DNA from: Kineococcus aurantiacus
GTDB lineage: Bacteria; Actinomycetota; Actinomycetes; Actinomycetales; Kineococcaceae
DNA: 64,000 bases
Reading direction: 5' to 3'
NCBI RefSeq assembly: GCF_013409345.1
Contig: NZ_JACCBB010000001.1
Span: forward strand, 806,001 to 870,000
Positions within the stretch are counted from its first letter, which is position 1. Each line of letters starts with the position of its first letter. Position numbers and translations under genes: made by a program. The notes beneath the pieces were generated by a model. That model saw only the letters and a program-made list of their open reading frames with translations. It was not told the DNA's origin and searched no databases. This document shows, piece by piece, positions 29,399-33,633 of the stretch.

Positions 29399-29932
29399 GT
29401 GATCGCCGCGCAGTTGCCGTTCCTCGTGGGCACGGTGCTGCTGCTCGTCGCCGGCGTCGGCAAGCTGCGGCACCCGGCCGGGACCGGCCGGGCCCTGCGC
29501 ACCCAGGGACTGCCGTCGGCCACCGCGCTGGTGCGGGGGCTCGGCGTCGCCGAACTGGCCGTCGCGGCGGGTTCGGCGGCCGGGCTGGCCGTCGCGGCCT
29601 GGGCCAACGCCGTCGCGTACGCGGGGTTCACCGGTTTCGTCCTGCTCGCCCTCCTGCGGCGCCGGCCGCTGAGCTCGTGCGGGTGCTTCGGCGAACCCGA
29701 CCTGCCCCCCACCGGCGCCCACGTCGTGCTCACCGCGGTCCTGGCCGGGGCCGCCGCGCTCGCCGCCGCCGGGCCTTCCCGGGGCCTGCCGGCCCTGCTC
29801 GCGCTGCCGGCCGGCGCGACGGTGGCGGCGCTCGTCCTCACCGGCCTGCTCTGCGCCCTGTGCCTGCTCGTCCTGACCGGGCTGCCGCGCCTGGTCGCGG
29901 CCCGCCCCCCCACCCGGAGGACCACGTCGTGA
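29399..29932 (+). CDS. MauE/DoxX-like membrane protein
   Basis: This 177-aa protein has four to five membrane helices and the MauE signature SSCGCFGEP (Cys94, Cys96). MauE proteins assist disulfide formation in the methylamine dehydrogenase light chain. The GTG at 29399 has GGAG 9 bp upstream and gives a start directly before the first helix; a TTG at 29363 is less likely. Its stop overlaps the MauD-like start by 4 bp, and both lie upstream of a Cys-rich Tat substrate, which fits an oxidative folding module. Confidence 0.85.
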   Translation: MIAAQLPFLVGTVLLLVAGVGKLRHPAGTGRALRTQGLPSATALVRGLGVAELAVAAGSAAGLAVAAWANAVAYAGFTGFVLLALLRRRPLSSCGCFGEPDLPPTGAHVVLTAVLAGAAALAAAGPSRGLPALLALPAGATVAALVLTGLLCALCLLVLTGLPRLVAARPPTRRTTS

Positions 29933-30744
29933 ACACCGTCGTCACGATCCTGCTGGCCGGCCTCGTGCTGGCCGTCGCGCTGCTGGCCGTGCTCGTCGCG
30001 GGGCTGCTGCGCTCGCACGCCGAGATCCTGCGCTCGCTGCACGAGCTGGGCGCCGGCCGCGAGGACACCGCCCCCCGCACCGGCAGGGACCTGCCGTTCG
30101 AGGTCGGGCGCGGCGTCGTCGAGGGAGCCGGGCCGGTGGGCCGGCGCGGCACGGCGATCTCCGGCACGACCCCCGACGGGGACGCCGTGCAGGTCGCCGT
30201 CGGGGCCGGCGGCACGAGCACCCTCGTCGCGTTCCTGTCCAGCGGCTGCCTGACCTGCCAGCGCCTGTGGGCCCGGCTGGCCGACCCCGCGCCGCTGTCG
30301 CTGCCGCCGGCGACGCGGCTGGTCGTGGTGACCCGCGGCGCCGACGCCGAGTCCCCCAGCACCGTCGCCGCCCTCGCGGCGGGCCCGGCCGCGCGCGGGA
30401 TCGACGTCGTGATGTCGACGGGCGCGTGGGAGGGGTACGAGGTGCCCGGCTCGCCGTACTTCGCCCACGTCGACGGGGCCAGCGGGCGGGTGACCGGTGA
30501 GGGCAGCGCCACGGACTGGGAGCAGGTCGAACGGCTCGTCGGGGAGGCGGTGGGCGACCGGGCCGGCGCGGCCCGGCACGGCTCCCCCGGGCACCGGCAC
30601 GACGGCGACCACCGGCACGACGCCGACCACGGGGACGGCGCCCACCGGGAGGCCCGCGCGAACCGGGAGCTGCTCGCCGCCGGCATCACCCCCGACCACC
30701 CCAGCCTGCGGCTCACGGCGGCCGACCAGACCCCGGACCGCTGA
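29929..30744 (+). CDS. MauD-like membrane-anchored thioredoxin-fold protein
   Basis: This 271-aa protein has an N-terminal membrane anchor (residues 4-27) and an extracytoplasmic redoxin domain with a C-x-x-C site, GCLTC (Cys107, Cys110), in the place where MauD has its thioredoxin motif. A His/Asp-rich segment (encoded at about 30584-30652, repeated H-x-H/D units) follows, which could bind metal. It should form or shuffle disulfides in the Cys-rich protein encoded downstream. It is coupled to the MauE-like gene by GTGA. Confidence 0.8.
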   Translation: MNTVVTILLAGLVLAVALLAVLVAGLLRSHAEILRSLHELGAGREDTAPRTGRDLPFEVGRGVVEGAGPVGRRGTAISGTTPDGDAVQVAVGAGGTSTLVAFLSSGCLTCQRLWARLADPAPLSLPPATRLVVVTRGADAESPSTVAALAAGPAARGIDVVMSTGAWEGYEVPGSPYFAHVDGASGRVTGEGSATDWEQVERLVGEAVGDRAGAARHGSPGHRHDGDHRHDADHGDGAHREARANRELLAAGITPDHPSLRLTAADQTPDR

Positions 30745-30824
30745 TGGACCTCACGACCGCCGCCCTCGTCCTGGGGGCGCCGACCGCGGTCGTCGCGGCC
30801 CTGCGCAGCCTCTGGTCCCCTTGA
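30744..30824 (+). CDS. Possible 26-aa membrane micropeptide
   Basis: A short ORF starts at the ATG sharing a base with the previous stop (TGATG) and ends 9 bp before the next start. The peptide MDLTTAALVLGAPTAVVAAL plus a short LRSLWSP tail could form one membrane helix. It might be a real subunit or only a translational-coupling relic; no homologue is known to me. Confidence 0.4.
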   Translation: MDLTTAALVLGAPTAVVAALRSLWSP

Positions 30825-30833
30825 GGGGAGTCG

Positions 30834-31427
30834 ATGCTCTCGAGCATCACCCCGCTCGGTGAGCGGGGTCGCGCCAGCCGGTGGTCGGTCACGGTCACCG
30901 CCCACCTCCTGGGCTCCGCCGCCGGCGGGGCCGCCCTGGGGACCGTCCTGGGCACGCTCGGGGCGCTGCTGCCGCGACCGGTGCCGCTCGTGGTCGCGGT
31001 GCTGGTGCTGCTGGCCGCGGCGACGATCGCCGCCGAGACCGGCCGGCTGCGCCGGTTCCCCAGCTGGCACCGGCAGGTCGACGAGGACTGGCTGCACCGC
31101 TACCGCGGCTGGGTCTACGGCCTGGGGTACGGCGCCCAGCTCGGCGTCGGGGTCGTCACGATCGTCACCTCCCCGGTCCTGCACCTGGCACTGGCGCTCG
31201 TGGTCGCCACCGGCGGCCCCGGGCCCGGCGCCCTGCTCGGGCTGGTCTTCGGGACCGCCCGGGCGCTGCCGCTGCTGAGCACCCGCTCGGTGACGACGCC
31301 GCAACGGCTGGCCGCGAGCCACCGGCGGCTGGAACGGCTGGCCCCCGCGGGCCGGCGGGCGACCGGCGCCTGGGCCGGGCTGGTCGCGCTGACCTCGCTG
31401 GCCCTGTCGGTGGGAGGAGTCCTGTGA
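30834..31427 (+). CDS. Polytopic membrane protein of the MADH-like cluster (possible MauF/CcdA analogue)
   Basis: This 197-aa protein has about five hydrophobic helices (25-50, 51-68, 98-124, 130-146, 178-196) and a FGTARALPLL segment that recalls DsbD/CcdA-type transporters, to which MauF is related. However, it contains no cysteine at all, so it cannot itself relay disulfides. AGGGGAG precedes the ATG. The cluster position suggests a role in maturation of the exported Cys-rich protein; the family assignment is tentative. Confidence 0.5.
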   Translation: MLSSITPLGERGRASRWSVTVTAHLLGSAAGGAALGTVLGTLGALLPRPVPLVVAVLVLLAAATIAAETGRLRRFPSWHRQVDEDWLHRYRGWVYGLGYGAQLGVGVVTIVTSPVLHLALALVVATGGPGPGALLGLVFGTARALPLLSTRSVTTPQRLAASHRRLERLAPAGRRATGAWAGLVALTSLALSVGGVL

Positions 31428-31888
31428 AGCTCGACGCGCACGGCATCTCGGTCGAGGCCCCGGACGGCTGGGAGGTGCGGATCACCCGGCGCGCCGCGCA
31501 GGGGCACGAACCGGGCTCGGACCGCCGCCCCGTCCTGCACGCCGCGACGGTCCCGCTGCCCGCGGTGCGCGGGGACTTCGGCGGCGGCGTCACCGGGACC
31601 CTCGGCAGCGACGACGTGTTCGTCAGCCTCTTCGAGCACGACCCGGCCTCGGCCGGCACGGCGCTGTTCGCCGACGAGGGCTTCCCCGTCCCGTCGCTGT
31701 CCGACTTCTCCCCCCGGCGGCTGCAGCGCAGCATCCCCGGCCAGTGCGGCGGGCAGTGGTTCTTCCACGTCGACGGGCGCGCCTTCAGCCTGTACGTGGT
31801 CCTGGGGTCGTACGCGCAGCGGGCGCGGCTGTTCGGCGCGGTCACGCAGCTGCTGGAGTCGGTGCGGGTGTCGGGGGGGCTGCGGTGA
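31424..31888 (+). CDS. Conserved hypothetical protein of the MADH-like cluster
   Basis: This 154-aa protein is soluble with no signal peptide or membrane segment. It opens KLDAHGISVEAPDGWEV, a pattern seen in several small actinobacterial proteins with an N-terminal beta-rich start, and has one Cys. It is translationally coupled on both sides by GTGA overlaps, so it is made with the membrane protein before it and the MADH-like protein after it. A chaperone role for the Tat substrate is possible but unproven. Confidence 0.6.
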   Translation: MKLDAHGISVEAPDGWEVRITRRAAQGHEPGSDRRPVLHAATVPLPAVRGDFGGGVTGTLGSDDVFVSLFEHDPASAGTALFADEGFPVPSLSDFSPRRLQRSIPGQCGGQWFFHVDGRAFSLYVVLGSYAQRARLFGAVTQLLESVRVSGGLR

Positions 31889-33633
31889 ACGTCGCGGACC
31901 GGGTGCTCGGCACCGTCACGACCTTCCTGGCCGCCCGCACCAGCCGCCGCGGCTTCCTGACCCGCACGGCCCTGGTGGGGTCGGCCCTGTCCGTGGGCCC
32001 GTGGGGTTTCCTGACGCGCCCGCAGTCGGCGTACGCCGCGGTCTGCGGCATCGACTCGACCTGCTCGTCGGGGTACACGGTGTTCTGCGCGACCGTGAAC
32101 AACGGCGTGAACCGCTGCCCCCCGGGCAGCCTCGTCGGCGGCTGGTGGAAGTCGGACGGGTCGGGGTTCTGCTGCGGCGGGGCCCGCTACTACATCGACT
32201 GCCACAGCTACTGCTCCTGCGGGTGCGGGGGGCGCAGCAAGTTCTGCGGCGAGGGCTGCCGGAACTGCTCGTGCGGGTGCGGGCCGGCCGGTCAGTGCGA
32301 CCAGCGCAAGGAGTGCTGCAACGAGTTCCGCTACGGGCAGTGCAACCAGGACACCGGCTGCACCGGCCCGGTGTGGTGCCGGGTCGTGACCTGCACCCCG
32401 CCGTGGCGCATCCCGGCGTGGAACTGCACGACGACGTCGGCGACCGACCAGCGGACCAACCAGCACACCGCGCCCGCGCTGGAGGACTGCACCCCCATCG
32501 GCCGGGAGTACACCGCGATCGGCGGGCCGGGCAGCGTGCTGGGCGAGCAGCGCACCCCCGAGCTCGGCACCCCCGGCCCCGGCGGCCGGTACCAGCTGTT
32601 CGACTTCGGCGCGATCCACCACTCCCCCGGCACCGGCGCGCACGAGGTGCACGGGGCGATCGCGGAGAAGTTCGCCGCCCTCGGCTGGGAGGCCGGGGCG
32701 CTGGGCTACCCCACGACCGACGAGCTGCGCACCCCCGACGGCCGCGGCCGGTTCAACCACTTCGAGCGCGGGTCGGTCTACTGGACGCGCGAGACGGGCG
32801 CGTGCGCCGTCGTCGGCGCGATCCGGGAGAGCTGGCGGGCCCTGGGCTGGGAGGCCGGGGCGCTGGGCTACCCCACGACCGACGAGCTGGGCACCCCCGA
32901 CGGGCGCGGCCGGTTCACCCACTTCGAGCACGGCTCGGTCTACTGGACGGCGGCGACGGGGGCGCGGGCGGTGCGCGGGGCGATCCGCGAGGAGTGGGAG
33001 GCGTGGGGCTGGGAGGCCGGGCCGCTGGGCTACCCCACGACCGACGAGCTGCCCACCCCCGACGGGCGCGGCCGGTTCACCCACTTCACCGGCACCCCCG
33101 CCGCGCCGGGCGGGTCGGTGCACTGGAGCCCGCGGACCGGGGCGCGGGCCGTGCTGGGCGCCGTCCGCGACGCGTGGGCGTACCTGGGCTGGGAGGGCGG
33201 CCGGCTCGGCTACCCCGTCACCAGCCAGGCGCGGACACCGGACGGGCGGGCCGTCTACAACCACTTCGAGCACGGCTCGGTGTACGCCTCCGCGGACACG
33301 GGCGCGCACGCCGTCACCGGCGCCGTCCTGGACCGGTGGCGGGCCACGGGCTGGGAGGCCGGCCCGCTGGGGCTGCCGACGACGGACGAGACCGCCGTGG
33401 CCGGGGGCAGCTTCGAGAACTTCGAGAACGGGTCGATCTACGTCTCGGCCGCCACGGGCGCGCACACCGTCTCGGGGCCGGTCCGGCAGGCCTTCCGCGA
33501 CGCCGGCGGGCCCGCGCGGTGGGGGTTTCCCACCGGCGAGCCCGAGCCCGTCAGCGCCGGGCAGGTGCGGCAGGCGTTCGAGCGCGGGACGGCGGTCCTC
33601 ACCGTCGCCACGGGGGCGGTCCGCTTCGGCTGA
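31885..33633 (+). CDS. Tat-exported MADH light chain-like (TTQ-type) protein fused to LGFP repeats
   Basis: This 582-aa protein has a Tat signal (SRRGFLTRT, residues 20-28), a Cys-rich domain (residues 54-202, 24 Cys) and seven LGFP repeats of about 54 residues (about 206-582) that bind cell wall. The Cys-rich part resembles methylamine dehydrogenase light chain MauA: CGID (Asp57) matches the CSID region, CPPGS then W87/W88 matches the Trp57 region, ECC (Glu143) matches the RDCC Asp, VWC (Trp164) matches IIWC with Trp108, and NCT (Thr182) matches HCT. Upstream MauE- and MauD-like genes support this. No heavy chain or MauG is in the window. Whether TTQ forms is unknown. Confidence 0.75.
   Translation: MNVADRVLGTVTTFLAARTSRRGFLTRTALVGSALSVGPWGFLTRPQSAYAAVCGIDSTCSSGYTVFCATVNNGVNRCPPGSLVGGWWKSDGSGFCCGGARYYIDCHSYCSCGCGGRSKFCGEGCRNCSCGCGPAGQCDQRKECCNEFRYGQCNQDTGCTGPVWCRVVTCTPPWRIPAWNCTTTSATDQRTNQHTAPALEDCTPIGREYTAIGGPGSVLGEQRTPELGTPGPGGRYQLFDFGAIHHSPGTGAHEVHGAIAEKFAALGWEAGALGYPTTDELRTPDGRGRFNHFERGSVYWTRETGACAVVGAIRESWRALGWEAGALGYPTTDELGTPDGRGRFTHFEHGSVYWTAATGARAVRGAIREEWEAWGWEAGPLGYPTTDELPTPDGRGRFTHFTGTPAAPGGSVHWSPRTGARAVLGAVRDAWAYLGWEGGRLGYPVTSQARTPDGRAVYNHFEHGSVYASADTGAHAVTGAVLDRWRATGWEAGPLGLPTTDETAVAGGSFENFENGSIYVSAATGAHTVSGPVRQAFRDAGGPARWGFPTGEPEPVSAGQVRQAFERGTAVLTVATGAVRFG

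Follow-up and report, generated by a model that had tools for sequence, protein, structure and literature searches.

The window analysed here is a stretch of 64,000 nucleotides of the Kineococcus aurantiacus genome (assembly GCF_013409345.1, contig NZ_JACCBB010000001.1, positions 806,001 to 870,000). From 29399 to 33633 it carries a run of five coupled genes on the + strand. These probably constitute a maturation operon that is derived from the methylamine utilization (mau) system, lacks an amine dehydrogenase, includes a MauF with selenocysteine (Sec) and serves a Cys-rich wall protein as its client. MauF itself is almost certainly a selenoprotein, judged by comparison of related sequences, with Sec at the position of the cysteine in the MauF motif WSPCG.

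The in-frame TGA codon of mauF

The mauF gene and the elements around its TGA are the following.

30744 to 31427, + strand: MauF homologue of 227 residues, with an ATG start, an inner TGA and a final TGA, and with proposed Sec at residue 27; assigned by hhalign
30822 to 30824, + strand: in-frame TGA, the proposed selenocysteine codon (WSP-U-GES), coinciding with the cysteine of MauF WSPCG
30833 to 30848, + strand: hairpin 1 after the TGA (GATGCT/AGCATC), recognized by conservation of its complement across TGA loci
30849 to 30869, + strand: hairpin 2, candidate bacterial selenocysteine insertion sequence (bSECIS), with a GGU apical loop 33 nt after the TGA, a 9 bp stem and -16.5 kcal/mol

A sequence-only reading of this DNA had treated the parts on either side of the TGA as two genes, a 26-residue open reading frame (ORF) and a 'membrane' ORF, and had counted six coupled genes. 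The coupled + strand run is real; a single gene with an in-frame TGA takes the place of the two ORFs, and the count is five. The site was scanned in 109 loci (L038-L145 and the window) using a pattern that fixes the neighbouring residues and leaves the codon free. The 80 stretches with a readable site all differ in sequence, and their codon is TGA in 67, TGC in 11 and TGT in two; TAA, TAG and every other codon are absent. The frame of the relatives accordingly reads either WSP-stop-GESML or WSPCG, and authentic MauF proteins have Cys at the position aligned with the TGA. Protein sequence is conserved both before and after the codon. When the TGA is read as Cys, residue 27 stands alone among the columns in having Cys in 20% or more of 79 sequences. 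At 30822-30824 the ribosome would insert Sec.

The RNA context separates the two forms of the gene. An exact core 5-bp complement of hairpin 1 occurs in 64 of the 67 TGA loci and in none of the 13 Cys loci, and two of the Cys loci that lack it encode residues also found among TGA loci. When 48 nt are folded as a consensus, the TGA set yields hairpin 1 and two pairs of hairpin 2, whereas the Cys set yields no pair. Hairpin 2 of the window, with the dimensions listed above, lies inside the published bSECIS limits (PMC13188914, Fig. 2 legend). Combined with a free-energy limit of -7.5 or lower, which was our own choice, these limits are satisfied by 62/67 TGA loci and 2/13 Cys loci.

The machinery for Sec decoding is present. 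The Kineococcus genome encodes SelA (E 6.9e-96), SelB, SelD and a tRNA-Sec with a tca anticodon. Presence of SelA was compared with the codon for 50 of the 80 named loci, and relatedness was ignored in this and all other SelA counts. SelA is found in 28/28 genomes with TGA and in three of ten without MauF in the examined stretch; for TGA genomes against the rest (28/28 versus 8/22) the one-sided Fisher probability is 3.4e-7, kinship ignored. In a sample of the order, 16/17 genomes with the module carry SelA as against 78/280 others; the one that lacks it, G032, is a draft in 1060 contigs whose module contig ends before MauF. The corresponding figures for a sample of the phylum are 27/30 and 205/366. 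Of its three exceptions, one (G668) has the Cys form and the other two (G427 and G660) yielded no MauF site; SelA is present in every one of the 17 phylum genomes in which a TGA locus was found. The module and SelA were scored in separate draws of each sample, which were treated as identical sets of genomes because their identifiers match. Physical proximity is occasional: of 57 scanned loci, seven have a tRNA-Sec at about 4-8 kb from the Cys-rich domain, the seven coming from five genomes (L029 and L098 share one contig, as do L030 and L089), and in genomes G017, G108, G164 and G245 the distance between SelA and the domain is 0.8-2.5 kb.

Elsewhere in the K. aurantiacus genome, the gene for FdhA contains an in-frame TGA in the context ARI-TGA-HSATV (L176:247-249, about 4304246 on contig C1), and selD, tRNA-Sec, selA and selB lie near it. 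From its sequence, FdhA looks like a second selenoprotein gene, and it provides a positive control for Sec decoding.

The mau maturation proteins and the exported Cys-rich protein

The remaining features of the run are listed below; the whole gene for the exported protein occupies 31885-33633 on the + strand.

29399 to 29932, + strand: MauE homologue, starting at 29399 (GTG) or 29363 (TTG); PF07291, 61.7 bits against a cut-off of 27
29929 to 30744, + strand: MauD homologue with a hydrophobic N-terminus, a thioredoxin-type CLTC and a His-rich tail; hhalign to authentic MauD
31424 to 31888, + strand: small conserved protein of no known family by Pfam or NCBIfam, present in 55 of 56 loci
31885 to 32037, + strand: twin-arginine translocation (Tat) signal of the exported protein; TIGR01409, 21 bits against a cut-off of 16.7, with presumed cleavage after AYA
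32038 to 32502, + strand: Cys-rich domain with GWWK, RYxxDC and FRYGQC motifs; AlphaFold2 model, fold comparison and column counts
32503 to 33633, + strand: linker and C-terminal LGFP repeats, presumed to bind the wall; PF08310, E 1.4e-124, seven stretches

By profile comparison, MauE, MauD and MauF are homologues of the Paracoccus-type maturation proteins. Profiles of relatives of the first two were aligned by hhalign with eight plasmid-borne authentic mau sets, giving 98.4% probability for MauE (E 7.5e-15) and 98.1% for MauD (E 7.5e-14). The CGC of MauE is kept in 65/65 relatives, and both Cys of the MauD CxxC in 72/74. The sequence-only reading had named these two genes correctly, from the CGCFG and CLTC motifs, and had overlooked MauF. 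The membrane gene matches one Paracoccus MauF with 97.6% probability (E 3.2e-12). Once the read-through N-terminus is included, comparison with four MauF proteins gives 99.4% (E 2.7e-21) over 192 columns, and STWSPCG is aligned. In controls, reversed MauF scores 0.2% and the eight MauE sequences 0.1-0.3%, and 100 block shuffles reach a maximum score of 31.2 as against 83.3. Within the operon proteins, only MauE and the LGFP region exceed a Pfam cut-off. The read-through MauF matches no NCBIfam or Pfam model; the small protein has no Pfam match and an NCBIfam best E of 0.059, under the cut-off. In hhalign comparisons neither the membrane gene nor the small gene resembles MauJ, and the small gene is also unlike MauF. 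MauD further contains, at about residues 215-245, a His/Asp-rich stretch that could bind metal and is not kept in relatives.

The exported protein had been proposed to be a Tat substrate with the layout of a methylamine dehydrogenase (MADH) light chain, part of a quinoprotein system of the tryptophan tryptophylquinone (TTQ) type. Tat export is borne out by the signal model, and the motif letters cited at the time (CGID, CPPG, WW, ECC, VWC and NCT) are all present. The layout they were taken to form does not survive comparison with relatives. Column counts were made over 107 rows: the window, which figures a second time as L037, and 110 loci from which L063, L081, L110 and L129 had been left out. 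W87, W88, Y102, D105, C106, C153, C165 and C181 are invariant. Of the other proposed TTQ-site residues, W164 is found in eight rows, D57 in 16, E143 in three and T182 in 58. The window accounts for two of the eight rows with W164; four come from other Kineococcus and two from nearby metagenome-assembled genomes (MAGs). At residue 152, which might instead have supplied the second TTQ Trp, 103/107 rows have Gln. The only invariant Trps are the adjacent W87 and W88, and the proposed second Trp is missing in 99 rows; in nine authentic light chains, both Trp are retained, as is the Asp of the RDCC/NDCC type.

Profile searches agree. The light-chain family PF02975, the check suggested with the TTQ proposal, matches neither the window protein nor 14 relatives; its best value in the K. 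aurantiacus genome, E 2.57, is at chance level and lies elsewhere. Across 396 genomes of the phylum it exceeds the cut-off in none and appears below it in four, where the matching sequences (L165-L168), on inspection, look unrelated. A search of the whole genome with the profiles for MauB (PF06433) and MauG (PF03150) yields no match with an E value of 1 or below. The TTQ reading of the Cys-rich protein is rejected on these grounds, and the earlier link to mau holds for the maturation proteins and not for the cofactor. A further suggestion, a wall-anchored amine or redox sensor, found no pointer toward either activity; the C-terminal part of the protein consists of LGFP repeats.

A remote MauA-type fold for the Cys-rich domain is nevertheless likely from models, if unproven. 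AlphaFold2 predicts the domain of the window with pLDDT 87.2 and pTM 0.84 (79 sequences) and that of relative L123 with pLDDT 86.0 and pTM 0.82 (62 sequences). Plain Foldseek finds no significant match in the PDB with either model. In fold comparison the only chains with Z of at least 2 are TTQ light chains, 11/29 (Z 2.1-2.6) and 6/42 (Z 2.6-3.0); these are weak scores from two related models, and the predictor may have learnt TTQ light chains. Profiles of the domain align with MauA at an hhalign probability of just 1.8-3.8%. Local alignment reaches the observed score in 3/200 shuffles. Global alignment is no better than chance, as 101/150 full shuffles and 100/150 with Cys kept reach the observed score, and it was discarded. 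The leader also aligns with MauA (93.5%), but this comparison lacked a control with generic Tat signals and carries no weight here. A register to MauA based on Cys spacing, though attractive, is not claimed either, since the covarying Cys pairs fit only part of the MauA disulfides. The end points of the alignment alone suggest that C165 of the model faces C121 of MauA and not C109.

The domain contains 16-28 Cys, an odd number in 34/107 rows. Two pairs change on the same branches, C60-C132 in 3/3 cases and C69-C198 in 6/6. Such joint change is expected of disulfides. Together with the CGC of MauE, the CxxC of MauD and the single conserved Cys/Sec position of MauF, it leads to the reading of the module as a dedicated thiol/disulfide relay for the exported protein.

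Proposed function and alternative explanations

In the proposed pathway, MauF (with Sec in the membrane), MauE (with its CGC) and MauD (with its CxxC) would form the relay. The relay would introduce or rearrange the numerous disulfides of the exported protein, and Sec would act at the membrane step. LGFP repeats, or the CWB2, FG-GAP and lectin modules of relatives, would then hold the protein to the envelope. Methylamine metabolism requires both MauE and MauD, and for MauE a part in forming the disulfides of MauA has been speculated (reports as cited in PMC7794033). By analogy, a role of MauE-MauD-MauF in folding the Cys-rich protein is reasonably likely, and that protein is the probable client of the set. 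A structural or protective role of its domain in the envelope is a guess.

The Paracoccus denitrificans mau operon (NC_008688.1, locus L146) is the closest point of comparison. The two share MauF, MauE and MauD homologues and the order E-D-A, in which the last gene encodes a Cys-rich exported protein; around mauA the Paracoccus order is mauF-B-E-D-A. In contrast to Paracoccus, no MauB or MauG profile match is found in the K. aurantiacus genome, genes for MauJ and amicyanin are not seen in the operon, MauF would use Sec for Cys, and one additional small protein is encoded. The exported protein differs in having LGFP repeats and no conserved second Trp. The light chains of MADH and aromatic amine dehydrogenase (PF02975) resemble it in CPPG, followed by Trp and then Asp-Cys, and are the sole family at the fold-comparison threshold; it differs from them in its lack of a PF02975 match, in the unconserved second Trp, in having 16-28 Cys instead of 12 and in its low profile probability.

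Several points weigh against the interpretation favoured here. Of the 109 scanned loci, 29 yielded no readable site, owing to short contigs, absence of MauF or a motif missed by the pattern. The SelA counts ignore kinship, as stated, and SelA is also carried by five of 12 genomes with the Cys form. Hairpins of the bSECIS type are common in GC-rich DNA: at the self-chosen limit, 207/903 TGA trinucleotides of the window qualify as background, and at a limit of -5 the figures become 64/67 TGA loci, 4/13 Cys loci and 378/903 background. Rfam gives no match at the hairpins. The Cys pair C110-C159 is discordant in 14/106 rows. In ten loci (L101, L118, L119, L121-L125, L127 and L138) the Cys-rich protein is accompanied by MauD and the small gene, but no MauF is seen in the examined stretch; MauF may therefore not always be required. 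Finally, Tat usually exports folded proteins, which makes the site of disulfide formation a difficulty.

Other explanations were weighed as well. That the TGA is an ordinary stop, leaving a broken gene or two genes (a 26-residue membrane peptide and a shorter MauF from 30834), is barely credible: both pieces have usable start codons, but the TGA recurs at one codon, alternates with Cys codons and never with TAA or TAG, lies within protein conserved on either side and is accompanied by SECIS-like hairpins and SelA. A TTQ-type, Trp-Trp cross-linked quinoprotein without heavy chain or MauG is highly improbable. The MauE, MauD and MauF homologues, the fold matches to TTQ light chains and the invariance of W87, W88 and D105 would all suit it, but neither W164 nor residue 152 is conserved as Trp, no MauG or MauB profile matches, and PF02975 is absent or below cut-off. 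A further idea is a selenoenzyme-driven maturation system that installs an undescribed covalent modification, for example on the invariant GWWK Trps, in an envelope protein of MauA fold, the Sec-containing MauF replacing the haem-dependent MauG route; this seems improbable.

Two further alternatives keep the thiol chemistry or the Cys-rich product and assign them another purpose. A selenium- or metal-dependent redox device is unlikely; in it, Sec-MauF would pass electrons via MauE/MauD to the Cys-rich protein, which would store thiols or bind metal outside the cell and be more than a folding client. The abundance of Cys, their frequently odd number and the His-rich tail of MauD are in its favour, as is the fact that Sec favours repeated redox cycling, but several Cys positions change in pairs, like structural disulfides. 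It is very unlikely that the Cys-rich protein is a bioactive precursor resembling ribosomally synthesized and post-translationally modified peptides (RiPPs) and modified by the MauE/MauD/MauF set. In the decRiPPter study of Streptomyces, three candidate families with mauE beside genes for Cys-rich products, one of them with mauD as well, were read as RiPP clusters; their precursors contain at least eight Cys (PMC7794033). Against such a reading, the Cys-rich region here is modelled with confidence as a domain of some 150 residues, it follows a Tat signal, many relatives add large modules for wall binding, and no exporter or protease gene recurs in the 29 loci compared at stringent settings. 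The passages of PMC7794033 consulted contain neither selenocysteine nor MauF, and the likeness to those clusters noted here is one of gene content.

The Sec-containing MauF appears to represent an uncatalogued selenoprotein family. It shares the exchange of UGA and Cys codons, a hairpin of bSECIS type and the Sec machinery with catalogued selenoproteins, of which 119 prokaryotic families or subfamilies were listed in 2026; none in that table is MauF-like or contains WSPUG (PMC13188914, Table 1). A literature search combining selenoprotein with MauF, MauE, methylamine utilization or Actinobacteria produced no description among the matches listed, some medical-titled ones being judged by title. 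Passages of PMC5029168, PMC1794560 and PMC12013277 were also searched, and nothing on a mau-like module was found in the literature consulted besides PMC7794033. A family of selenoproteins distributed across Actinomycetota thus appears to have escaped notice; a UGA near the N-terminus allows a gene caller to start after it. The finding places selenium in a membrane maturation pathway. To our knowledge, a pathway of the MauE-MauD-MauF type has been tied to amine dehydrogenases only; here the three accompany a client without TTQ residues. For MauF, whose chemistry is not known to have been described, the WSP(C/U)G position offers a single residue to test, and natural Sec and Cys variants make the comparison direct.

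Distribution of the module

Among the genomes sampled, 17/297 from the order and 30/396 from the phylum contain relatives of the Cys-rich domain. In a species collection, 96 stretches contain such relatives and 80 were kept for comparison. Actinomycetota is the title of 78/80; the other two are MAGs labelled otherwise. These two contigs, L130 (labelled Acidobacteriota) and L085 (labelled Melainabacteria), carry an actinobacterial module; L130 shares ORFs of the same length with the Actinomycetes MAG L140, so that mis-binning is likely. Where a locus extends more than 4.5 kb upstream, as 56/80 do, MauD and the small gene are each found in 55 loci, MauE in 53 and the membrane (MauF) gene in 43. 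Gene order within the module varies among relatives.

A sixth gene at a constant place was not found in a strict comparison of 29/80 loci (at least 140 residues, E 1e-12), at which settings MauE itself was joined in just 15/29 and a small or fast-changing gene could escape. Apart from the five genes, the comparison returned nothing but frames that overlap the module or run antisense to it, and clusters of at most seven loci in scattered places. The Cys-rich gene is present twice in the MAG YX2bin23 (L134 and L143), and none of the other module genes lies around L143. In the Kineococcus rubinsiae assembly (G134; L081 and L027) the Cys-rich domain is split over two frames, by a frame shift or a sequencing error.

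The C-terminal parts of the exported proteins are diverse. Five proteins (L074, L079, L090, L092 and L093) end within five residues of the Cys-rich domain. Among 36 scanned C-terminal parts, a set chosen to over-represent members without LGFP, 14 have LGFP repeats, five CWB2, four FG-GAP and one a ricin-type lectin module.

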